This document shows, piece after piece, positions 10,330 to 60,438 of a stretch of DNA of 64,000 bases (its first letter is position 1; each line of letters starts with the position of its first letter). Origin of the DNA: a bacterium (GTDB taxonomy: Bacteria > Hydrothermota > Tepidihabitantia > SM23-42 > JAOAFX01); contig DASVHD010000021.1 in the NCBI GenBank assembly GCA_036382775.1, forward strand, positions 1 through 64,000, given 5' to 3'. Under the pieces are notes generated by a model that ran no database searches, was not told the origin of the DNA, and worked only from the letters and a program-made list of their open reading frames with translations. Position numbers and translations under genes: made by a program.

Positions 10330-10357
10330 TTGATTTACAGATGAAGCTGCATATAAT
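10330..10357 (+). promoter_or_regulatory. Leaderless-type promoter of hicB
   Basis: TTGATT (10330-10335), a 16-nt spacer and TATAAT (10352-10357). Only 6 nt separate the -10 box from the ATG at 10364, so transcription should begin at or next to the start codon. Confidence 0.75.
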
Positions 10358-10363
10358 ACACGC

Positions 10364-10588
10364 ATGAAGAAGAGGAAAATTGACAAGGAAATAATTTTCA
10401 TGGTTGAAGAATCGCTTGACGGCGGATACGAGGCGCACGCACCGGGTTATTCTATTTTTACGGAAGCCGAAACCTTAGATGAACTGCGTATATCGATAAA
10501 AGATGCCGTGACGTATCATTTTGCGGACGGCGAAGCACCGGCTATTATTCGGATGCATATCGTGAGAGATGAGTTGATCCCCGTATGA
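10364..10588 (+). CDS. hicB: HicB-family antitoxin
   Basis: The product is 74 aa: a lysine-rich start, then a HicB core (EIIFMVEESLDGGYEAHAPG, then the helix ETLDELRISIKDAVTYHF) and a short strand ending D-E-L-I-P-V. HicB neutralises the HicA mRNA interferase and often represses its own operon. Its stop overlaps the start of the downstream hicA remnant (ATGA), the usual coupling, although many hicBA operons carry the toxin first. The -10 box is 6 nt from the ATG, predicting a leaderless message. Because the toxin frame is broken, this antitoxin may now have no target in cis. Confidence 0.88.
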   Translation: MKKRKIDKEIIFMVEESLDGGYEAHAPGYSIFTEAETLDELRISIKDAVTYHFADGEAPAIIRMHIVRDELIPV

Positions 10589-10833
10589 AACTGCCCCGGG
10601 ACCTGGGCGGCGAAGAACTTGCTAAGATCCTGGGTAAATATGGATATCAAATCACCCGTCAGACAGGCAGTCATATCAGGCTGACGACAGTATTCAAAGG
10701 GCAACACCATATGACTATTCCATAACATAAAACTCTGAAAGTCGGAACGCTGAATAATATTCTGAATGATATTGCACAATATTTGAAAAAAGATAAACAG
10801 ATTTTGATAGAAGAATTATTCACTAAGTATTGA
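10585..10833 (+). pseudogene. hicA: HicA mRNA interferase broken by an in-frame stop
   Basis: The frame starts with an ATG overlapping the hicB stop and reads through a typical HicA of 82 codons: LGGEELAKILGKYGYQITRQ, then TGSHIRL with the catalytic His, then HHMTIP, a TAA at 10723-10725, and H-K-T-L-K-V-G-T-L-N-N-I-L-N-D-I to a natural stop at 10831-10833. The family normally has P-(N/K)-H-K-T-L-K-V-G-T-L, so one substitution (for example AAA to TAA) explains the stop. The remainder is undamaged, implying recent inactivation. The 46-residue product keeps the catalytic His but lacks the C-terminal helix. Readthrough cannot be excluded but nothing suggests it. Confidence 0.85.
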
Positions 10834-12529: not shown

Positions 12530-12569
12530 GACAACTCCTCGCCCCGCGAAATGGGGACAATTTTTTAAA

Positions 12570-12722
12570 GTTCCCCGCATGTGCCGTGTGGGAAAAAGTC
12601 TTTGAACCCAGGTTTAAGGTGGGCGCCTGTCGGCTGTCAGACAATTCCAACAGTCAAACGTGGCTCCCAAACGATGGGTGTTGGCTCAAGACTTAATGCC
12701 CATCACGGACACTGCAGGGAAC
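12570..12722 (-). ncRNA. ssrS: 6S RNA (RNA polymerase regulator)
   Basis: Read on the minus strand, the closing stem GTTCCCTGCAGTGTCCGTG pairs with CACACGGCACATGCGGGGAAC, with small bulges. Between them are the conserved blocks CTTGAGCC near the 5' side and CACCTTAAACC..GGGTTCAAAG near the 3' side, flanking a large internal region as in E. coli and other 6S RNAs. At about 153 nt it is slightly short. It begins 3 nt after the zapA stop; zapA-ssrS linkage is known across many bacteria. 6S RNA mimics an open promoter and sequesters housekeeping RNA polymerase in stationary phase. No separate promoter was identified, so it is probably processed from the operon transcript or has a promoter inside zapA. 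Confidence 0.82.
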
Positions 12723-12725
12723 GAA

Positions 12726-13031: not shown

Positions 13032-13208
13032 CTATATGAGCAGATTATCGACCTTCTCAATGAGACCATCGACCCGTTTTTTAGCTTCTGCTTCGCGGAT
13101 CTTCGAACGTTCAGAGTCCTGCTCAAGCTCTTGAACTCTTTGTTTAAGCGCACTGATCGTGCCAATCATTTTGGTGATTCTCTCTTCCAGTTTTATTAGT
13201 TCCTCCAA
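13032..13208 (-). CDS. Small coiled-coil protein (ZapB-like), TTG start
   Basis: The product is 58 aa, starting with TTG at 13208 inside the end of pheT (overlap 13 nt). It reads LEELIKLEERITKMIGTI then SALKQRVQELEQD and EAKKRVDGLIEKVDNLLI, a continuous heptad-repeat coiled coil. AAAGGAG lies 5 nt before the TTG, which makes this start convincing; an internal ATG (residue 14) has no such site. Its size, coiled coil and place immediately upstream of zapA fit the ZapB-like partners that stimulate Z-ring assembly, but homology cannot be shown from so short a coil. Confidence 0.72.
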   Translation of the reverse strand: MEELIKLEERITKMIGTISALKQRVQELEQDSERSKIREAEAKKRVDGLIEKVDNLLI

Positions 13209-15526
13209 TGTGTCTCCTTTGTTCTTAAACTAGCCTGGAACTGCCCGGTTATTTCAAGGACGATCTTGGAGATGAATTTTTCAACTTCCGCATCGGTGAG
13301 TGTGCGGTCCGGTGCCCTGAAATACAGGCGGAATCCAAAGCTTTTTTTACCCTCCGCCAAGTTTTTCCCTTTGTAATAATCGAAGAGAATCGTTTTTTCC
13401 AGAACCGGTCCGCCGACCCGGCGCATCAGCGCCATCATATCGGACGCTTCGGTGGCGTTGTCGACCAGGAATGAAAGATCGCGGATGTTCGCCGGGAACT
13501 TTGCCGGTGGCTGGTAGAACGATTCGCTGACCAGGGGCCATAATTTATCCAGGTTCAGTTCAAAGTACATGTAATCGCCCTCGCAGAGATCACGATCGAT
13601 CACGCCCAGGTACCCGATCTCCATGTTGGCGTGGGACAAGAGCGTAGCTTGGCTGAAACCCGTCCTTTGCACATGGCTGAACTGGATGTTCTGGATATGC
13701 AGTGCCGCGAAGAGCGCCTCAGTCGTGCCTTTGGCGTCAAAATAATCGATGGCGCGGTCCGGTTCATGCCAGAACCCAGGCCGAGCTTCACCGCCCATGG
13801 CGACGCCCAGATGTTTTTCCTGGAATGGTTCCTCCGGGATGAGAATATTACCGATCTCGAACAGCTGCAGGTTATAATTGCCTTTCGACCGGTTATGCAA
13901 TACGCAATCGATCATGCCTGAGAACAGCGACGGCCTCAGGCTGTCGAACCTTTCGTTAAGCGGATTTTTGATCGATACATACCGCGTATATCCAAGTTCG
14001 GTTAAACGCTTGCTCGCGGCCAGGGAGAGATTGTAGGTTTCGTTGAACCCCCGGCCCACCATGAAATCCTTGACCGTCTCCTCATACTCGCGACTTTTCG
14101 GTTTGACCGCGAGCGGCACCCATTTCAAGGACGGCACCTCGGGGATCTTCATGTAGCCATAGAGCCGGGCGACTTCTTCGAAGATGTCTTCTTCGATACG
14201 CAGATCGCCCCGGTAGTGGGGGATGCTCGCGGCCAGGGTCGTGCTGCCCGTGGTATGGATATGCGCCCGGGCCAGCATCTTCTTGACCGTTTCGTTCGGG
14301 AGGTCTAAAGACAGGATCTTGTTCAATCGCGCGGCCGAAAAACGCACTTTCCGGGTGCGCATTTTCTTGCCGCAGCCCGTAAATTCTGTTTCCCGGGCAG
14401 CAGCGTATTTTTTGAACAGCGCGGCCGTCTGCAGGGATGTTTCGTCAACCATCGCATAGTCGGCACCGCGTTCGAACCGCATTGACGCTTCGGTCTGAAT
14501 ACCCAGACGGCGCGCGGTCGCGGCAATGCGCGCAGGGTCAAAATACGCGCTTTCCAGCAGTACCCGGTTGGTGGATGCGGAGATCTCTGCCCGTTTCGAA
14601 CCGATGACACCGGCCAGGGCGATCGGACCGTTCTTGTCGGCGATGACCAGGTCCTCACGGGTCAGCTTGAATACCGTTCCTTCGAGCGTGATGAATTCTT
14701 CGCCGGCCCTTGCCCGCCTGATGATGATGCTTCCTTTCAAGAGGTCAAGATCGAACGGATGCAGGGGCTGTCCGTACATGAGCATCATGATGTTGGTGAT
14801 GTCAACGACATTGCTGATACCCTTCATGCCCATGCAGTGCAGACGCCACTTCATCCAGAAGGGGGATTCCTGGACCGCGATATCCTCAAAGATCCTCGCG
14901 GTGTACCGCGGGCACCCGGACAGGTCCTTGATCAGGATCTTGAAAGCGCCCTCGTGGTTGGCCTGGGGAGCAAGATTTTCTTCCGGGCTGTAAGAAATGC
15001 CGAGCGCGATGGCGACTTCGCGGGCAAGACCGATCATGGACAGCCAGTCGAAGCGGTTGGGGAATGTTTTGATCTCGATCACGACATCGTCCAGACAGTC
15101 CTTGAATTCCCGGCCCGGTTCGATCTGGTCGAGAACAATGACACCGGTCGACTTTTCCGCCAGCCCCAGTTCCTCTTCACTGACCAGCGTCCCGTCGGAC
15201 CTGACACCGTCAAAATCCTTGGGTACGATGGTCTCATTTTGGAAAGTTACGCCGACCGGACCGACCAGCACGATGTCCTGGGGTTTGATATTTTTGGCTG
15301 CGGTCACGATCTGAACCTTCTTGGTAGTCTTGATATCGAGTATTGACAGGTTATGCAGCTTCGGATGGGGATCGATGCCTTTAATTAGCCCGGTAACGAT
15401 GCCGGGCGGGGCAAGGCTTGACTGGCCTTCGGTTTCGATCCCGAGGTCAAGGAGCGACCGGGTCAATTGCTCGACATTGATCTTGGCACCCAGCAAGTCC
15501 TCGAGCCATTTGACAGAAAATAGCAT
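13196..15526 (-). CDS. pheT: Phenylalanine--tRNA ligase beta subunit
   Basis: The product is 776 aa, the length of the long bacterial form. In order it has an N-terminal segment (MLFSVKWLEDLLG), an EMAP-type tRNA-binding domain (~40-150, HPKLHNLSILDI), the B3/4 editing domain (~210-370), the B5 domain (~390-470, with RIEEDIFEEVARLYGY), a catalytic-like core, and a C-terminal FDX-ACB anticodon-binding domain (PPAKFPANIRDLSFLVD onward). It forms the alpha2-beta2 synthetase with PheS, which lies 33 nt upstream. The start follows an AGGA-type ribosome site. Confidence 0.97.
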   Translation of the reverse strand: MLFSVKWLEDLLGAKINVEQLTRSLLDLGIETEGQSSLAPPGIVTGLIKGIDPHPKLHNLSILDIKTTKKVQIVTAAKNIKPQDIVLVGPVGVTFQNETIVPKDFDGVRSDGTLVSEEELGLAEKSTGVIVLDQIEPGREFKDCLDDVVIEIKTFPNRFDWLSMIGLAREVAIALGISYSPEENLAPQANHEGAFKILIKDLSGCPRYTARIFEDIAVQESPFWMKWRLHCMGMKGISNVVDITNIMMLMYGQPLHPFDLDLLKGSIIIRRARAGEEFITLEGTVFKLTREDLVIADKNGPIALAGVIGSKRAEISASTNRVLLESAYFDPARIAATARRLGIQTEASMRFERGADYAMVDETSLQTAALFKKYAAARETEFTGCGKKMRTRKVRFSAARLNKILSLDLPNETVKKMLARAHIHTTGSTTLAASIPHYRGDLRIEEDIFEEVARLYGYMKIPEVPSLKWVPLAVKPKSREYEETVKDFMVGRGFNETYNLSLAASKRLTELGYTRYVSIKNPLNERFDSLRPSLFSGMIDCVLHNRSKGNYNLQLFEIGNILIPEEPFQEKHLGVAMGGEARPGFWHEPDRAIDYFDAKGTTEALFAALHIQNIQFSHVQRTGFSQATLLSHANMEIGYLGVIDRDLCEGDYMYFELNLDKLWPLVSESFYQPPAKFPANIRDLSFLVDNATEASDMMALMRRVGGPVLEKTILFDYYKGKNLAEGKKSFGFRLYFRAPDRTLTDAEVEKFISKIVLEITGQFQASLRTKETHWRN

Positions 15527-15559
15527 GTTAATGTTCCTCGGCTTTCATAAGATTGATCA

Positions 15560-16567
15560 TTAAAATTGCTCCAGAAACCTAATGTCATTGTTGAAAAAAA
15601 CCCTGATGTCATCGATGGCATATTTGATGATCGCCACCCGTTCCACGCCCATACCCAGGGCATAGCCGGAATATTTACGGGGTGAGATATTAACGTTCTT
15701 CAGCACCTGCGGATGGACCATGCCGCAGCCCAGGACCTCCACCCAGCCGCTGTTTCCGCACACGGCGCAGCCCTCGCCGCCGCACACCGTGCAGCTGATC
15801 GCCAGTTCGCCGGACGGCTCGGTGAATGGAAAATAAGACGGCCGCAGTTCATAGCGCGTTTTTGGTCCGTAGATATGACGCACGAATTCTCCGAGCAGCC
15901 ATTTGAGTTCGCCAAAAGAGACGTTTTCGTCGACGTAAAAGGCTTCGATCTGGTGGAAAACCGGGGAATGGCTGGCGTCGAAAGGATCATATCGATAACA
16001 GCGCCCCGGGCAGATGATCTTGACCGGCGGCTGTTTCTTCTCCATGACTCGGATCTGGATCGGCGAGGTGTGGCTGCGCAGGATCAGGTCGTCCTTGATC
16101 GCGGTATACAGGCACGACTGCATGTCCCGCGCCGGGTGGTTCTTGGGCATGTTGAGGGCTTCAAAATTGTACCAGTCGTATTCGATCTCCGGTCCGGTGG
16201 CGACAGAGAATCCGTAATACTGGAAGAACTCAATGATTTCCGTGAATACTTTTGACAGCAGGTGATAGTGGCCGATGTAACCGATCTTCCCGGGCAAAAG
16301 GGTCTCGATCTTCATCTGGTCATCAGCAGCCATGGCAGCCAGACGCGTTTGAAGCTCGTTGGTCAGGAAATTCTTGATACTGTTTATCTGATTGCCGAAT
16401 TCCTTCTTCTCCTCGACCGCCATTTGCGCCAGGTCCTTGAACAGCTCGTTGAGCGCGCCTTTGCGTCCAAGATACTTGACCCGGAGCGCTTCCAGGGCGT
16501 CCTTGCCACGGGCCTGCGCCAGGGCGTCGGTGATCTCCTGCTTGAGCTTTTCCAGCTGTTCTGTCAT
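15560..16567 (-). CDS. pheS: Phenylalanine--tRNA ligase alpha subunit
   Basis: The product is 335 aa. An N-terminal coiled coil (residues 1-85) binds tRNA, followed by the class II catalytic core. Motif 2 lies at GRCYRYDPFDASHSPVFHQ and motif 3 at GMGVERVAIIKYAIDDIR near the C-terminus. It also has a CxxC-x-G-x-G-C-x-x-C cluster (C-T-V-C-G-G-E-G-C-A-V-C) before GWVEVLGCGMVHP, a putative zinc knuckle present in some bacterial PheS lineages. It is seven nucleotides downstream of rplT in the classical order. Confidence 0.97.
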   Translation of the reverse strand: MTEQLEKLKQEITDALAQARGKDALEALRVKYLGRKGALNELFKDLAQMAVEEKKEFGNQINSIKNFLTNELQTRLAAMAADDQMKIETLLPGKIGYIGHYHLLSKVFTEIIEFFQYYGFSVATGPEIEYDWYNFEALNMPKNHPARDMQSCLYTAIKDDLILRSHTSPIQIRVMEKKQPPVKIICPGRCYRYDPFDASHSPVFHQIEAFYVDENVSFGELKWLLGEFVRHIYGPKTRYELRPSYFPFTEPSGELAISCTVCGGEGCAVCGNSGWVEVLGCGMVHPQVLKNVNISPRKYSGYALGMGVERVAIIKYAIDDIRVFFNNDIRFLEQF

Positions 16568-16574
16568 GATCGGG

Positions 16575-16928
16575 CTAACTTGCCTCTTTGCACAATTTCA
16601 TGAGCGTACTGAACTGCTCGGGATATTCATAAGCCAGCGCCGCCAGTGTCTTGCGGTCCAGCGTGATATTGTTCTGTTTTAAACGGTGGATGAACTGAGA
16701 ATACTTCATTCCTTCTTTACGCAGCGCGGCGTTGATCCGCGTTATCCACAACGCACGGAACACTCTCTTTTTCCGTTTACGCTCGCGGTACGCCGAGATC
16801 CAGGCTTTCATGACGGCGACCCGGGCGCTTCTATAGAGCTTATGCTTACCGCCCCAATAACCCCGGGCTGCCTTAAGCCATTTCTTCCTTCGTTTCTTCG
16901 TGTAGGGAACACTTTTAGTTCTGGGCAT
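16575..16928 (-). CDS. rplT: 50S ribosomal protein L20
   Basis: The product is 117 aa and full length: a basic N-terminal extension (MPRTKSVPYTKKRRKKWLK, GYWGGKHKLYRSA) and a helical C-terminal domain (LWITRINAALR, YSQFIHRLKQ). It binds 23S rRNA early in large-subunit assembly. In enterobacteria and firmicutes L20 represses its own operon by binding the mRNA leader. No L20-binding mimic was identified in the 21-nt rpmI-rplT gap. Confidence 0.98.
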   Translation of the reverse strand: MPRTKSVPYTKKRRKKWLKAARGYWGGKHKLYRSARVAVMKAWISAYRERKRKKRVFRALWITRINAALRKEGMKYSQFIHRLKQNNITLDRKTLAALAYEYPEQFSTLMKLCKEAS

Positions 16929-16949: not shown

Positions 16950-17135
16950 CTAAAAACCTTTGATCCGGCGCAGGTCAGACGCGCTGATAGGCGCTGGCTT
17001 TGTCAGACGCCGTTTTCTTCGCTTTGATTTGGATACCAGATGGTGCCTCATGCCGGTTTTACGCCTCGTCGGGGTGCCGCTTTTTCTGATCTTCATCCGC
17101 TTGCACCAGCCTTTTTTCGATTTGAGCTTTGCCAT
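16950..17135 (-). CDS. rpmI: 50S ribosomal protein L35
   Basis: The product is 61 aa, slightly shorter than usual, with the family pattern MAKLKSKKGWCKRMKI, then SGTPTRRKTGMRHHLVSKS and K-R-R-K-R-R-L. It starts directly after the infC stop, with an AAAGGAG ribosome site inside the infC 3' end. Confidence 0.96.
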   Translation of the reverse strand: MAKLKSKKGWCKRMKIRKSGTPTRRKTGMRHHLVSKSKRRKRRLTKPAPISASDLRRIKGF

Positions 17136-17654
17136 TTATTTACTCCTTTTCTGCGGTATGAGCGTAACGTAGATCGTTTGTTCTTCCTGTTTCGCAGGGC
17201 TTTCCGGTTTCCCGATCTCGGCGAGGTTCGTGATCACCTTTTCGACGACTTTCATACCCAGATCGGCATGCAGCAGCTCACGGCCCCGAAGGCGCAGTTT
17301 TATTTTTACCCGGTCGCCATCGGTCAGGAATTCCTTGACCTTAGTTTGTTTCACCTGGAAGTCGTGTTCACTGATCTTAAGCGAAAGATGGATCTCCCTG
17401 ATCTTTGCCTGATGCTGGTGCTTGCGCGATTCCCGCTCCTGCCGTTTCTTTTCATACACGTAACGGCCAAAATTCATTAAGCGGCAGATGGGCGGGGTTG
17501 AATCCGGTCCGACTTCCACCAGGTCAAACCCCCGCTCGCGGGCGATCCGGAGCGCGGTGTGGGTATCAAATTCACCCAGGACCTGGCGGTTTTCATCGAT
17601 CAGTTTTACGCGTGGAGCCCTTATCTTAAAATTCACAAATGGTAAGTTCTTAAT
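17136..17654 (-). CDS. infC: Translation initiation factor IF-3 with non-canonical ATT start
   Basis: From the ATT at 17654 the product is 172 aa: an N-domain (IRAPRVKLIDENRQVLGEF), FDLVEVGPDSTPPICRLMNFG, a lysine-rich linker, then the C-domain (REIHLSLKISEHDFQVK to the end). IF-3 dissociates 70S ribosomes and rejects non-AUG starts. An upstream TTG (17672) would also keep the frame, but a full AAGGAGGTG lies 3 nt before ATT AAG, after that TTG. The ATT overlaps the thrS stop (A-ATT-AA). AUU is the known conserved infC start in many bacteria and lets IF-3 repress its own synthesis. Confidence 0.93.
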   Translation of the reverse strand: MKNLPFVNFKIRAPRVKLIDENRQVLGEFDTHTALRIARERGFDLVEVGPDSTPPICRLMNFGRYVYEKKRQERESRKHQHQAKIREIHLSLKISEHDFQVKQTKVKEFLTDGDRVKIKLRLRGRELLHADLGMKVVEKVITNLAEIGKPESPAKQEEQTIYVTLIPQKRSK

Positions 17655-19548
17655 TTTCACCTCCTTGTTCAAGGTCTAGTAGATTTAAGAAATCCTTCAG
17701 TTTCATTTCTCCCATATTCCCCCGGCCGCGTTTCCTTACCGAGACGGTCTTGGACTGTGTTTCGCGCGCGCCGACCACCAGGACATACGGTATCTTGGCG
17801 ATCTCGGCTTCGCGGATCCGGTGGTTGATCTTTTCGGACCTGTCGCTGAGTTCGACGCGCAACCCATGTTTCTTGCATTTATTGAAGACCTCTTTAGCAT
17901 ATTTTGCTTCCCGGTCCGTGATGGGTATGACCACCGTCTGGACTGGCGCCAGCCATGAGGGGAAAGCGCCGCCATAGTGTTCGATCAGGGTGCCGATGAA
18001 ACGCTCGATCGATCCGTAAATGGCGCGATGGATGACGACCACCTCTTTATGAACGCCGTCACGGTCCATGTAGGTGATATCGAAGCGCCTGGGGAGGTTG
18101 AAATCGAACTGGACAGTCGTTGCCTGCCAGGGGCGACCGATCGCGTCTGTGATATTGATGTCGATCTTGGGACCGTAGAAAACCGCTTCACCCTCTTGCG
18201 TCTGGTAAGGAAGCTCGACTTTTTTCAGGGCGGAGATCAGTCCGGATTCAGCCCGTTCCCATTCGGCATCCGTGCCCAGATACTTCGCTTTTTGTTTCGG
18301 ATCGCGGACCGACAGATATACCTTGTAATCATTGAAACCGAATTTTTTGAAGATCATTATGGTCAGTTGCAGGATCTTCACGATCTCATCCCCGATCTGA
18401 TCCGGTGTGCAGAAAACATGGGCGTCATCCTGAGTAAAGCCGCGTACACGCAGGAGTCCATGGAGCGTTCCCGACAGTTCATTGCGGTATACGGTGCCCA
18501 GTTCAGCATATTTGATCGGCAGTTCCCGGTAACTGCGCACCCTGGATTTGTAGATCAAGATATGACCCGGGCAGTTCATGGGTTTCAGAACATACTCTTC
18601 ATTATCGACCGCCAGCGTGTACATCTTATCGCTGTAAAAATCACAGTGACCAGACTGGTGCCAGAGCTGGTTCCGGGCGATGTGCGGTGTGGAAACGATC
18701 TCGTAACCTGCGGCGATATGCTCCTTGATCCAGTATTCTTCGATGATCCTTTTGATAATCGTACCTTTGGGGTGCCACAGTACCAAGCCCGCCCCCGATT
18801 CCTGGAAGATGGAGTAAAGCTCCAGCTCAGCACCCAGTCGCCGATGGTCACGGCGGGCTGCTTCCTCAAGCTTTTTCAAATATTCCTTGAGTTCGCTTTC
18901 CGAAGGGAAGGATATCCCGTAGATCCTCGACAGCATGGGCAATCGCGAATCTCCGTGCCAGTAAGCGCCGGCTACGCTGAGGAGCTTAAAAGCGCCGATC
19001 ATCCCGGTATGAGGTATATGCGGTCCCAGGCAAAGGTCGACGAAATCGTCGTTCCGATACAGGCTAACCTCATTGTCCGGCAGGTCCTTTACGAGCTCCA
19101 CTTTGTACGATTCATTGCGTCGGCTAAAGAATTCGCCGACCGCTTCCTTTTTCATGACCGTTCTCTCAAAAGGTACCTTCTTTTCTATGATCTGCCTCAT
19201 TTTTTCCTCGATCTTTGCGAGATCATCGGTCGTGAACGGTTTCTTGGTATCAAAATCGTAGTAAAAACCCTCATCGATCGCCGGTCCGATCCCAAGTTTT
19301 GCTTCAGGGAATAGCATCTTTACAGCCATAGCCATGATATGCGAGGTTGAATGCCAGTATATCTTCTTCCCCTTTTCACTTGAAAAATCAACGACTTTTA
19401 TCTCGCTATTCTCGGTAATCGGCGAGGACAGGTCCTTAGCTTGTTCATTAATGAACACGGCAAGGGTTTTTTTGTCACGGATGATATCCGCGGCCCTGGT
19501 GCCTTTTTCCACTTCAATGGACTTGCCATCAAGTTTAACTTTAACCAT
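17650..19548 (-). CDS. thrS: Threonine--tRNA ligase
   Basis: The product is 632 aa: an N-terminal TGS domain (residues 1-60), the SAD editing domain (H-S-T-S-H-I near 68, G-P-H-I-P-H-T-G near 174), and a class II core with the zinc/threonine site in MNCPGHILIY and motif 2 in YRNELSGTLHGLLRVRGFTQDD. A C-terminal anticodon-binding domain (PVQTVVIPITDREAKYA) follows. It is the first gene of the operon and has a consensus promoter whose -10 box ends 6 nt before the ATG. No ribosome-binding sequence exists, so it should be translated from a leaderless message. No T-box or operator-type leader is therefore possible. Confidence 0.97.
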   Translation of the reverse strand: MVKVKLDGKSIEVEKGTRAADIIRDKKTLAVFINEQAKDLSSPITENSEIKVVDFSSEKGKKIYWHSTSHIMAMAVKMLFPEAKLGIGPAIDEGFYYDFDTKKPFTTDDLAKIEEKMRQIIEKKVPFERTVMKKEAVGEFFSRRNESYKVELVKDLPDNEVSLYRNDDFVDLCLGPHIPHTGMIGAFKLLSVAGAYWHGDSRLPMLSRIYGISFPSESELKEYLKKLEEAARRDHRRLGAELELYSIFQESGAGLVLWHPKGTIIKRIIEEYWIKEHIAAGYEIVSTPHIARNQLWHQSGHCDFYSDKMYTLAVDNEEYVLKPMNCPGHILIYKSRVRSYRELPIKYAELGTVYRNELSGTLHGLLRVRGFTQDDAHVFCTPDQIGDEIVKILQLTIMIFKKFGFNDYKVYLSVRDPKQKAKYLGTDAEWERAESGLISALKKVELPYQTQEGEAVFYGPKIDINITDAIGRPWQATTVQFDFNLPRRFDITYMDRDGVHKEVVVIHRAIYGSIERFIGTLIEHYGGAFPSWLAPVQTVVIPITDREAKYAKEVFNKCKKHGLRVELSDRSEKINHRIREAEIAKIPYVLVVGARETQSKTVSVRKRGRGNMGEMKLKDFLNLLDLEQGGEN

Positions 19549-19554
19549 TCGGTA

Positions 19555-19582
19555 ATTATAAAGGATTTTTTGATGTTGTCAA
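19555..19582 (-). promoter_or_regulatory. Leaderless-type consensus promoter of the thrS operon
   Basis: On the minus strand, TTGACA (19582-19577), a 16-nt spacer and TATAAT (19560-19555) leave 6 nt to the ATG at 19548. Both boxes match the sigma-70 consensus exactly. Confidence 0.88.
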
Positions 19583-19613
19583 TATATAATTGGTATTGCC
19601 GATTCAAGGCTTA

Positions 19614-19641
19614 TTGACTTTCCATCCATTGTTATTATAAT
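19614..19641 (+). promoter_or_regulatory. Divergent leaderless-type promoter of the EamA-like gene
   Basis: TTGACT (19614-19619), a 16-nt spacer and TATAAT (19636-19641), then 6 nt to the ATG at 19648. It mirrors the thrS promoter across a 99-bp intergenic region. Confidence 0.85.
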
Positions 19642-19647
19642 AACCTC

Positions 19648-20049
19648 ATGTCAGCGCTGAAATACTCGTATATTGCCATGATCGGTTGGGGATTCTGGGC
19701 GATTGGCAGTAAATTACTAAGCAAACACCTAAACGCCGAAAGCCTGTCATTTTGGATATCGGTTTGGTCTTTTTTCGCGCTGGCCATCTTTATTTTCTTT
19801 AAAAAATCGCTGATTGTCAGCCATTACTCTCTATTGGCATTGCCGGTCGGGCTTTTTTCATTGGTCGCGATCCTGGCATTCTACAAGGCTCTGCAGATCG
19901 GACCCACATCGGTCGTGGTCTGTCTTACCAACCTGTACCTTCTTTTCCCGGTCGTTTTTGGGTTTGTTTACTTGAAGGAACCGATCACCCTCACCCGCGT
20001 TTTGGGCATTGGTCTGGCGATCGCCGCCAGCATCTTGCTGTCATTATAG
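19648..20049 (+). CDS. EamA/DMT-superfamily half-size transporter
   Basis: The product is 133 aa with four predicted membrane helices (roughly 7-25, 37-51, 62-83, 92-132), about one EamA repeat. Motifs include MIGWGFWAIGSKLLSK at the start and F-Y-K-A-L-Q-I-G-P-T-S...Y-L-L-F-P-V...L-K-E-P-I-T in the second half, typical of EamA C-terminal helices. Full EamA proteins have two repeats, so this one should dimerise, as small multidrug-type DMT proteins do. The substrate is unknown. The mRNA is predicted to be leaderless. Confidence 0.8.
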   Translation: MSALKYSYIAMIGWGFWAIGSKLLSKHLNAESLSFWISVWSFFALAIFIFFKKSLIVSHYSLLALPVGLFSLVAILAFYKALQIGPTSVVVCLTNLYLLFPVVFGFVYLKEPITLTRVLGIGLAIAASILLSL

Positions 20050-48190: not shown

Positions 48191-49441
48191 CTACAATTTC
48201 TTACGCACCTCAGGCGGGATCTGATTGAATACGACCAGCGACAGCACGGTTGCAGCGAGCAGGACAAAACCAACAAAGAAAAGGATCGTATAAGGCGCGA
48301 AGCGGCTCGACCCGATGCCGATGGCGACCGCGCACGTGGTAAAAGTTAGATTGATGACGAATTCCTTGGTGCCGAAGATCCGGCCCCTGATGCCTTTGAG
48401 CACATCTTCCTGGAGCATGGTATCCTGGGCAATGCCGATTAATGAAAAGACAACGCCCGCGATGAAAGCCATGATGTACAAAAAGATCGGGGTCACAAAA
48501 AATGGACCGAGGAGGAAGAAGATGGTCAAAGCCGCCATGCTTATGATGAGAATAACGCCGCGCGATACGAGTCTGCCGAACATCCCCATCGCCACGGCGC
48601 CGACCAGCATGCCGATGCCGACGACACCGCCGAAAAGGCCGACACCGGCTGTGCCGAGCCCGAACTGCTGCTGGACCATGAATATGAGGATCGTGTAGGC
48701 AGTGGACGCGACAAACGGAAGAACAAAGACCGAGATCATCACGAAAACCACGACCTTGTCCTTGATCAGCAGAATGCCCAGTTCCTTGAGGTCGTTGGCA
48801 AACAGCCTCAGAGATTTTTTCAGCTCGCGGCCGAGCGAAAAGTCGATCTTTCTCACCGGTTCGAACAGGATCTTGGCACCCATTCCCAGGGCCAGGCATC
48901 CTGCGATGCAGTGGGTCGAGGCGTCAATATAGAACCCGAGTTGCCAGCCGGTCCATTTTATCAGGTAACCGCCCCCGACCATGCCCAGGAACGTGGCGAC
49001 CCGTGTAAGGGTGACAATAATAGAGTTCGCCGGCACCAGGTCATCGAAAGAGACCAGGTCAGGGATCACAGTGTTCCGCGACGTGTTGTTGAATACGTCC
49101 AGCGAGAAAAACAGAATGACCAGTATCCATATTGGGACGACACTATGGGTCAGGCCGACGACGGTCGGCGTCAATACGATCAGGATGGTCTGGATGATAT
49201 GGCATCTGAACATGATGGTCTGTTTGTTCCAGTGGTCGACCAGGACGCCGACAAAAGGAGAGAGCAGCATGACCGGAAGCGAGAAGGCGACCGCGAATTC
49301 GCTGAATGCCGAGACCCGTCCCGGTGAAACGACACCGATCAAGGTCACGATGACCATGTGCGTGAGCCGGTCGCCCAGCTGGGATATGGTGTTGGATAAG
49401 CCCAGAAATAAAATTCCGCGGTTTTTCAGAAGCGAAAACAC
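48191..49441 (-). CDS. Major facilitator superfamily transporter
   Basis: The product is 416 aa with about 12 membrane helices. The N-half has GILFLGLSNTISQLGDRLTH and the loop 2-3 motif GVLVDHWNKQTIMFRC (G-x-x-x-D-x-x-x-(K/R)-x), and a central charged loop (KIDFSLGRELKKSLRLF) separates the halves. It resembles MFS_3/enterobactin-exporter-like or macrolide-efflux-like carriers; the substrate is unknown. The start is GTG, only 5 nt after a -10-like box, so it is predicted leaderless. Confidence 0.88.
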   Translation of the reverse strand: MFSLLKNRGILFLGLSNTISQLGDRLTHMVIVTLIGVVSPGRVSAFSEFAVAFSLPVMLLSPFVGVLVDHWNKQTIMFRCHIIQTILIVLTPTVVGLTHSVVPIWILVILFFSLDVFNNTSRNTVIPDLVSFDDLVPANSIIVTLTRVATFLGMVGGGYLIKWTGWQLGFYIDASTHCIAGCLALGMGAKILFEPVRKIDFSLGRELKKSLRLFANDLKELGILLIKDKVVVFVMISVFVLPFVASTAYTILIFMVQQQFGLGTAGVGLFGGVVGIGMLVGAVAMGMFGRLVSRGVILIISMAALTIFFLLGPFFVTPIFLYIMAFIAGVVFSLIGIAQDTMLQEDVLKGIRGRIFGTKEFVINLTFTTCAVAIGIGSSRFAPYTILFFVGFVLLAATVLSLVVFNQIPPEVRKKL

Positions 49442-49446
49442 GATGA

Positions 49447-49474
49447 AGTGTATGGATTATGGTGTTCAAGTCAA
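49447..49474 (-). promoter_or_regulatory. Leaderless-type promoter of the MFS gene
   Basis: On the minus strand, TTGACT (49474-49469), a 16-nt spacer and TACACT (49452-49447), then 5 nt to the GTG start at 49441. The -10 box is weaker than elsewhere. Confidence 0.55.
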
Positions 49475-49599: not shown

Positions 49600-49627
49600 T
49601 TGACTTTGACATTAGTGTCAATATAAT
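49600..49627 (+). promoter_or_regulatory. lysC promoter with a palindromic spacer and overlapping hairpin
   Basis: TTGACT (49600-49605), a 16-nt spacer and TATAAT (49622-49627), then 5 nt to the ATG. The spacer is itself an inverted repeat, TTGACA-TTAG-TGTCAA. A 9-bp hairpin, AATGCCTTC-TGAAG-GAAGGCATT (49579-49601), abuts the -35 box. Both are plausible operators. Confidence 0.75.
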
Positions 49628-49632
49628 GCGAC

Positions 49633-50853
49633 ATGGCGATGATAGTCATGAAATTCGGAGGCACTTCCGTTGCCAATGCCGAGCTGATAAATCGGGCCGC
49701 TCAGCGAGTAGCGCGGGAGAAAAAGAAAGAGAACGACATCGTGGTCGTAGTCTCGGCCATGGGCCACACGACCGATGCGTTCGTCAAATTATCGCGGGAG
49801 ATCACCCCTCATCCGCCGGCGCGGGAAGTGGATATGCTTTTGACCGCAGGCGAACGGATCTCGGTCGCGCTGTTTTCCATGGCCCTGGAACGGCTCTCGT
49901 TGAAAGCCGTTTCGTTCACCGGCTCGCAGGTGGGGATAATCACCGACAACAAACACACCGACGCCAGGATTCTTGAGATCAGGGGCGACCGGCTCAGGAA
50001 AGCGTTGGCGGACGGTCAGATCCCGGTAGTGTGTGGTTTTCAAGGAGTGAGCATGGAAAAAGAGATCACCACGTTGGGCCGGGGTGGATCTGATACCACC
50101 GCGGTCGCGCTCAGCGCGGCGCTGAATGCGGACCGGTGCATGATCTTCACCGATGTCGATGGAGTCTATACCGAGGATCCCAAGCGTTTCCCCGGAGCTA
50201 AGAAAATAGAAAAGATATCCTATGAGGAAATGATGGAGCTGTCATCCCAGGGCGCGCAGGTTCTGCACCCCCGGGCATCAAGTATCGCGGCGCGCTATGG
50301 CGTGCCCGTTGAGATCCGCAGTAGTTTCAGCAGCAAGTCCGGGACGACCGTGACCCAGCTTGACGGCATGGAGAAACCCAGACCTAAGGCCATAACTCAC
50401 AGTGAAGACCTTTATCTCGTGACATTGGTCCAGGTGCCGAAAAACCCGGCTTGTCTTTCGCAGATCGTTAAGGACCTCACCGAGCATGGCATACACCTGA
50501 AGTTCTTCTTCCACGGTATATCCGATGCCCGCAACTTTGACCTGTCCTTTATCACGCCCCTCAATGAGAAGAACAGGGTCGAGGCGCGGCTTAAGCCGTT
50601 ACGGCGCAGGCTTCGGATATCATCGATCAGGGAAGTTCTTGACGTCTGTTCGATCAGCATCATCGGCACGGGCATTGGCAGTGACAACCGCGTGCTGGCT
50701 GGCATTTTCAGCACGCTGTCCAAGGTGCGTGCCCATATCGAAGCGGTCACGACATCCGAGCTTTCCATAAACATTTTTTTGCATAAAAAATTCCTGGATA
50801 CAGCGGTCAGAAGATTGATGGAACAGTTCGGTCTGGCGGCGAAGACTACCTGA
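49633..50853 (+). CDS. lysC: Aspartate kinase
   Basis: The product is 406 aa. The kinase domain begins MIVMKFGGTSVANAELI, with SAMGHTTDAFVKL, LTAGERISVALFSMAL, TLGRGGSDTTAVALSAAL and DVDGVYTEDPKRFPGAK. Two C-terminal ACT domains (~residues 265-400) provide feedback control by lysine and/or threonine. It phosphorylates aspartate, the entry to the lysine, threonine and methionine pathway. The ATG is 5 nt after the -10 box with no ribosome site, so the mRNA should be leaderless. It converges on the outer-membrane-protein gene, with the 3' ends overlapping by 8 nt. Confidence 0.96.
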   Translation: MAMIVMKFGGTSVANAELINRAAQRVAREKKKENDIVVVVSAMGHTTDAFVKLSREITPHPPAREVDMLLTAGERISVALFSMALERLSLKAVSFTGSQVGIITDNKHTDARILEIRGDRLRKALADGQIPVVCGFQGVSMEKEITTLGRGGSDTTAVALSAALNADRCMIFTDVDGVYTEDPKRFPGAKKIEKISYEEMMELSSQGAQVLHPRASSIAARYGVPVEIRSSFSSKSGTTVTQLDGMEKPRPKAITHSEDLYLVTLVQVPKNPACLSQIVKDLTEHGIHLKFFFHGISDARNFDLSFITPLNEKNRVEARLKPLRRRLRISSIREVLDVCSISIIGTGIGSDNRVLAGIFSTLSKVRAHIEAVTTSELSINIFLHKKFLDTAVRRLMEQFGLAAKTT

Positions 50854-52949: not shown

Positions 52950-52991
52950 CAAACATATGAATGGTCGTTAAATGCCTCCTAAGCATTATTA

Positions 52992-53019
52992 ATTATACGC
53001 ATACGGCGGATAATGTCAA
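52992..53019 (-). promoter_or_regulatory. Promoter of the sugar transferase gene
   Basis: On the minus strand, TTGACA (53019-53014), a 16-nt spacer and TATAAT (52997-52992), both consensus. The ~35-nt leader contains an AGGAGG that is about 25 nt from the annotated start, too far to serve it. Confidence 0.85.
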
Positions 53020-59405: not shown

Positions 59406-59433
59406 TTGACAAATTTGTAAATCGTGTTATAAT
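59406..59433 (+). promoter_or_regulatory. Leaderless-type promoter of rhuM-fic
   Basis: TTGACA (59406-59411), a 16-nt spacer and TATAAT (59428-59433), both consensus. Six nt separate the -10 box from the ATG at 59440. Confidence 0.85.
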
Positions 59434-59439
59434 GATTTG

Positions 59440-60438
59440 ATGAAAAATAATGTAAAAGACAGCAGGGGCGAGATTGTTATCTATAAAACCTCTGATAAAC
59501 AGGTAAGACTTAATGTCAAATTGGAAAGAGAAACAGTCTGGCTTACCCAGAAACAGATTGCAGTACTTTTCGGCACAGAAAGACCTGCTATCACTAAACA
59601 TTTGAGAAATGTGTTCAAAAGCAAGGAATTAGACAAGAAATCAGTATGTTCCATTTTGGAACATACTGCCACAGACGGTAAGACTTACAAAACCAATTAC
59701 TATAATCTTGACGCGATAATTTCCGTTGGTTACCGGGTCAATTCACGCCGGGCAACCCAGTTTCGCATCTGGGCAACGAGAGTCCTCAAAGACTATCTTG
59801 TAAAAGGGTATGCCATTGACAAAAAACGACTATTGAAACAACAGGAAAAATTTATAGAACTTCAGCAAACAGTGGCTTTCTTAAAAGAAAAAAGTGCCAT
59901 ACCGGAGATTAAAACACAAATGCACGAGATTTTGTCAATTATCAATGATTATGCTAACTCAATGACCCTCTTATTTCAATATGACAAAGGCAAGGTGCCA
60001 GTATATAAAACCAGAAAGCCACGTTTTGTTTTAACCTATGAAACATCCTTAAGGCTGATCGATGAATTTAAGAAAGAATTAATTACAAAAGATGAAGCTT
60101 CTTATCTTTTTGGGAAAGAAGTCAACGAGAAATTAGCAGGAATATTGGGCGCAATATATCAGACATTTGAAAAAAGGGATCTTTATGGCTCGGTCGAAGA
60201 AAAAGCTGCGAATTTACTCTATCTGACCATCAAAGATCATCCTTTCGTTGATGGAAACAAGCGCATCGGTTCGCTATTGTTCATCCATTATTTGAATAAA
60301 AACAAATGTATGTTAAACAAAGCAGGCAAACCGAAAATAAGCGTAACCACAATAGTTGCTTTGGCATTGTTAATTGCCAATAGTGACCCCAAAGAGAAAG
60401 AAATAATGATAAATATCGTAACCAACCTGCTAAGATGA
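59440..60438 (+). CDS. RhuM-like DNA-binding domain fused to a Fic/Doc domain
   Basis: The product is 332 aa. The N-terminal ~140 residues match the RhuM/virulence-protein family ([21 protein letters not shown], then [11 protein letters not shown] and [41 protein letters not shown]), with a helix-turn-helix-like segment at the start. A linker helix leads to a Fic/Doc C-terminal domain with [20 protein letters not shown] (H-P-F-x-D-G-N-K-R, ~270), the Doc form, which in P1 Doc phosphorylates EF-Tu. Such fusions are common in environmental genomes and untested. The ATG at 59440 is preferred over a TTG one codon upstream, and the message should be leaderless. Confidence 0.88.

Follow-up and report, generated by a model that had tools for sequence, protein, structure and literature searches.

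The genes for threonyl-tRNA synthetase (thrS) and an EamA-like transporter are transcribed divergently, and each is preceded by a sigma-70-type promoter that ends six nucleotides before the ATG. Such promoters recur through the genome, and the mRNAs made from them are very probably leaderless, transcription starting at, or within about 3 nt of, the start codon. The position of the promoters, the lack of a Shine-Dalgarno (SD) sequence and the evolutionary conservation of the arrangement are direct observations, described below for a 64,000-nt stretch of DNA (the window), for the genome to which it belongs and for related genomes. thrS shares 66-67% identity with its counterparts in the WOR-3 genomes SM23_42 and 4484_100 and in DG_78 (labelled TA06), and on this sequence evidence the window's genome is assigned to candidate division WOR-3; an origin in the candidate phyla radiation, considered at first, was rejected on the same evidence.

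The divergent thrS and EamA-like promoters

The geometry given for both genes in the initial annotation was borne out: a spacer of 16 nt, a TATAAT box and a gap of 6 nt to the ATG, with no SD sequence at either (Table 1). From a sigma-70-type promoter in this position, transcription would begin with the start codon itself or no more than about 3 nt from it, and ribosomes would initiate at the 5'-terminal AUG or GUG with no SD pairing. Strong SD sites are used by other genes of this genome. Transcription could also begin 1-3 nt before the start codon, which would leave a very short leader. Both the transcription start site and 70S-type initiation at these genes are what we infer from the promoter position. 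When the initial 40 nt of three predicted leaderless mRNAs were folded, they were indistinguishable from shuffled sequences.

Table 1. Positions of promoter elements and genes in the window.
Feature	Position	Strand	Remarks
hicB-like gene promoter, TTGATT-N16-TATAAT, gap 6	10330..10357	+	gene 10364-10588
pheS and pheT, remainder of the thrS-headed operon	13196..16567	-	
rplT (ribosomal protein L20)	16575..16928	-	
rpmI (ribosomal protein L35)	16950..17135	-	from translation and operon position
infC (IF3), putative ATT start 17654-17652	17136..17654	-	overlaps thrS stop codon by one base (shared T)
infC SD, AAGGAGGTG	17658..17666	-	within thrS 3' end
thrS (threonyl-tRNA synthetase), ATG start, predicted leaderless	17650..19548	-	Pfam and conservation
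thrS -10-to-start gap, 6 nt (TACCGA)	19549..19554	-	no SD
thrS -10 box, TATAAT	19555..19560	-	read directly; identical in 23/23 order members
thrS -35 box, TTGACA	19577..19582	-	read directly; identical in 23/23 order members
EamA-like gene -35 box, TTGACT	19614..19619	+	read directly
EamA-like gene -10 box, TATAAT	19636..19641	+	gap AACCTC, 19642-19647
EamA-like transporter gene, 133 aa, predicted leaderless	19648..20049	+	Pfam
MFS gene promoter, TTGACT-N16-TACACT, gap 5	49447..49474	-	GTG start at 49441
lysC promoter, TTGACT-N16-TATAAT, gap 5	49600..49627	+	ATG at 49633; geometry conserved in 13/15 order members
rhuM-fic gene promoter, TTGACA-N16-TATAAT, gap 6	59406..59433	+	ATG at 59440

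The same design had been claimed for the hicB-like, lysC, MFS and rhuM-fic genes. Gaps and spacers agree at all four; the exact hexamers differ at two, the -35 box of hicB being TTGATT and the -10 box of the MFS gene TACACT. The strict pattern TTGAC-N16-18-TATAAT-N4-8-ATG has five matches in the window, against 0.03 expected from dinucleotide shuffles. One of them (52984-53019, minus strand, gap 5) leads to an ATG in another reading frame than the downstream Bac_transf gene and does not represent a leaderless start for it. Two further observations concern these loci. The spacer of the lysC promoter contains a palindrome, TTGACATTAGTGTCAA (49606-49621), which was rejected as a lysC operator since it is absent from relatives. 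The short hicB-like ORF is followed by a 46-aa HicA-like ORF that covers part of the HicA profile (10364-10725 for the two, plus strand), and the pair is possibly a truncated toxin-antitoxin pair.

Promoter-to-start distances in the whole genome

The window's genome (3.06 Mb, 51 contigs) contains 134 matches to the strict pattern and one to the reversed-pattern control. A genome-wide peak in the distance from the -10 box to the start codon had been set beforehand as the test, and it was found: in 860 kb, ATGs behind TTGAC/TATAAT promoters numbered 18, 15, 4 and 10 at gaps of 5, 6, 7 and 8 nt, compared with about 2.4-3.4 at each position elsewhere. The predicted sharp excess near the start is thus present, but it is not confined to exactly 5-6 nt, as gaps 5-8 are enriched. 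The -35 box lies at sigma-70 spacing (16-17 bp) at the predicted leaderless starts.

A gene-centred test, in which start codons were picked from coding signal alone and independently of promoter or SD, gave 20, 10, 8 and 11 -10 boxes at gaps 5, 6, 7 and 8 before operon-first genes and no -10 peak near the start of operon-internal genes; SD motifs precede both classes. Genes and starts were called by a simple home-made script, by which small genes were missed. With a promoter model, 70-74 of 368 operon-first genes, depending on the threshold, were predicted to be leaderless, compared with 0.4-2.6 when the upstream sequence was shuffled; among 234 operon-internal genes there were 5. The model counted the genes on which it had been trained, with shuffles as the only control, so that the predicted leaderless share of about 19%, or about a fifth, of operon-first genes is approximate.

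An SD match of at least 4 bases is missing at 72 of the 74 genes predicted to be leaderless, while 196 of the 291 other first genes have a match of 4-8 bases. Where a TTGAC/TATAAT promoter has a downstream gene (94 cases), an in-frame start follows at gap 3-9 in 38, and among the other 56 many are followed by a start that has an SD of 5-7 bases. The coexistence of predicted leaderless genes with strong-SD genes, noted in the window at the outset, therefore holds genome-wide. In two relatives the 16S anti-SD is intact, reading GGATCACCTCCTTTC. Among the predicted leaderless genes that were scanned are those for aminoacyl-tRNA synthetases (IleRS-type class I and class II (D/K/N)), an EF-G-like factor, phosphofructokinase, IMP dehydrogenase, undecaprenyl diphosphate synthase, phosphoglucomutase and an RmlD-type reductase; these are ordinary housekeeping genes.

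Conservation of the thrS and lysC promoters

thrS was compared among the 23 order members with a complete thrS 5' end (L072-L094, one per genome). All 23 carry a perfect TTGACA-N16-TATAAT, with a gap of 6 in 21 and of 7 in two. The two hexamers each have a mean pairwise identity of 1.00; the corresponding value falls to 0.65 in the spacer, 0.53 in the gap and 0.32 in the 40 nt upstream. By this measure thrS is the strongest of the predicted leaderless cases. The lysC geometry is the same in 13 of 15 order members; the other two have no promoter at the start, and their sequence suggests that lysC is operon-internal there.

Most other families of the window's class keep the thrS arrangement, with weaker -10 boxes. 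The gap is 6 in all six f10 genomes, where thrS starts with GTG, 7-8 in all three f3 genomes, and 6 in f8 and, by inspection, in f7. Gaps of 9-13 in f5, f6 and f9 imply short leaders there, and the thrS of one f6 genome (L126) lacks such a promoter. Outside the class (f11, f12, f25, f30, f37), thrS mostly lies behind a tRNA gene or has no such promoter; one f15 genome (L123), also outside the class, has TTGACA-N16-TAAAAT at gap 7.

Distribution across the phylum and spacer length

Among 147 genomes, strict matches numbered 70-157 per genome in all 27 of the window's order (controls 0-4) and 0-73 in the rest. The scan of related genomes that had been proposed as a check thus gave an excess in 27 of 27 order members by pattern counts, and gene-by-gene analysis of a second order member gave the same peak. 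The share of TTGAC/TATAAT promoters with an ATG at gap 4-8 was 34-58% in f1-f7 and f9, 26% in f8 and 15-22% in f10, f16, f25, f26 and f37; these family-level counts, like those for the spacer, were summed from hand-entered tallies. When the gene-centred analysis was rerun on four further genomes, the values per 100 first genes, against 12.0 in the window's genome, were 8.9 in G076 (f2), 5.3 in G110 (f10), 7.3 in G046 (f25) and 2.7 in G142 (f37). By the family shares and the gene-centred rates, the trait is strongest in the window's order and not confined to it. The idea that leaderless genes are strictly absent outside the class had been entertained but is weakened by G046, where some -10 boxes lie at gaps 6-10.

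In the window's class the spacer between the -35 and -10 boxes is mostly 16 bp: it has this length at 371 sites of the window's genome and 17 bp at 51, and the 16-bp share is 88-89% in f1 and f2. In f37, of the same phylum, it is almost exclusively 17 bp (1285 sites, against 31 with 16 bp), and 17 bp is also the most abundant spacer in E. coli (PMC8695583). Judged from these counts, promoter geometry seems to have changed in a lineage-specific way.

The thrS-infC operon

thrS heads an operon in the order thrS-infC-rpmI-rplT-pheS-pheT. The E. coli thrS-infC-rpmI-rplT-pheST operon has the same gene order and likewise an ATT start of infC; its thrS has a leader that holds an operator, whereas the thrS of the window would have no leader. 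In the window infC offers no suitable ATG, GTG or TTG start, and an ORF list restricted to these codons places the start at 17672. Reading from ATT puts GGAGG five nt upstream, so that a near-cognate codon stands behind a strong SD, and in all order members compared the start is ATT, or ATC in two. In several other WOR-3 families, too, infC apparently starts with ATT, ATA or ATC behind a GGAGG-type SD (seen in L121, L122, L124, L125, L127, L129, L132, L133, L134, L138, L139 and L141). Downstream of the operon, between zapA and the RNase Y gene, a 6S RNA is encoded at 12568-12723 (minus strand).

The earlier suggestion that thrS escapes leader-based control fits the data. Rfam searches at gathering scores detected no T-box or other RNA leader at thrS, the one match in the window being the 6S RNA, and a gap of only 6 nt gives no leader able to hold a T-box or an operator of the E. 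coli type; leader control would be excluded because there is no leader to hold it. The operon is not necessarily uncontrolled, since its first two genes have starts of IF3-sensitive types, leaderless in thrS and ATT in infC. According to a review, IF3 discriminates against non-canonical starts, and the translation of model leaderless mRNAs is inhibited when infC expression is raised (PMC9031893). A leaderless thrS followed by an infC with ATT or ATC would therefore present two starts of types disfavoured by IF3. High IF3 levels might then disfavour both, and IF3 might damp its own operon at both cistrons. That the leaderless thrS start has been kept as part of such a feedback device, replacing leader-based control, is a speculative reading that we regard as rather unlikely; the response of both cistrons to IF3 is a testable idea because such effects on leaderless mRNAs and non-canonical starts have been reported in that review.

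Discussion

The leaderless interpretation put forward initially is supported by the distance peak, the missing SD sequences and the conservation, from which the transcription starts themselves are deduced. It has to be weighed against three other readings. A sigma-70 transcription start normally falls where gaps of 5 and 6 place the A of the ATG, and these are the commonest gaps. This argues against real promoters that yield mRNAs with very short leaders (about 1-7 nt), on which initiation would not be strictly 5'-terminal. The spread of -10-to-start gaps from 5 to 9 would suit such leaders, as would the gaps of 9-13 before thrS in certain families of the class outside the order; the constancy of the thrS gap in the order (6 in 21 of 23) speaks against them, and we consider them very unlikely. 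The ATG behind the -10 box might instead be a preferred transcription start sequence, an A followed by TG, with the true gene start further downstream. Consistent with that, 10 of the 45 promoter-adjacent ATGs at gaps 5-9 are out of frame, that at 52984-53019 among them. The other 35 share the frame of the gene that follows, where about one third would be expected by chance, a later start with an SD match is available in only 4 of the 38 genes with an in-frame start, and the protein homology of thrS and lysC begins at the promoter-adjacent ATG, all of which makes downstream starts highly improbable.

It is also conceivable that the mRNAs have leaders and that the start-adjacent TATAAT serves in ribosome binding and not as a promoter element, like the AT-rich, non-SD signals reported before the starts of FCB-group bacteria (PMC9581028). 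Against this, TATAAT is paired with TTGAC at a fixed spacing (in 860 kb, 109 sites at 16 bp and 20 at 17 bp, with about one at each other spacing), operon-internal genes lack the box, and both thrS hexamers are invariant in 23 species. A ribosome-binding signal of this type is thus scarcely credible here, and leaderless mRNAs remain by far the most probable product of these promoters.

Leaderless genes in bacteria are already well known, and WOR-3 is a new group for a known kind of expression. TA-led (leaderless) genes were found in 207 of 953 bacterial genomes in a 2011 survey (Zheng et al.; PMC3160421). As described there, a -10-like box about 10-12 nt before the start, without SD, occurs in a mixture with SD genes; in the window's genome this box is above chance and restricted to operon-first, not operon-internal, genes. 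WOR-3 is not among the groups named in the accessible parts of that survey, which covered bacterial genomes of 2010. By comparison with what those parts describe, the window's lineage adds a full -35 box at a mostly 16-bp spacer and the conservation of one gene's promoter across an order. PMC9581028 cites a GeneMarkS-2 prediction of leaderless transcription for 21.6% of bacterial species. In those genomes, according to the same article, leaderless and SD-led genes coexist in a similar way, and leaderless transcripts make up as much as 40%. Many leaderless mRNAs likewise occur beside SD genes in Mycobacterium tuberculosis (PMC3898074) and Deinococcus, but their 5' ends were mapped through RNA sequencing, whereas in WOR-3 they are predicted from promoter position. 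The Deinococcus deserti plasmids gave no strict-consensus matches in 1.03 Mb and were therefore unsuitable as a positive control. A partial literature search found no work linking WOR-3 to leaderless genes or to transcription start site or transcript data.

Leaderless expression would hereby be extended to an uncultured phylum. thrS provides an unusually clean evolutionary case, with a perfect promoter locked to the start codon in 23 species while the upstream DNA has been randomised. The calling of gene starts in WOR-3 is affected as well, in that SD-based callers can miss promoter-adjacent starts, and the start of infC is misplaced by callers limited to ATG, GTG and TTG. Finally, the thrS-headed operon offers a testable link between IF3 levels and leaderless initiation at a core translation operon.
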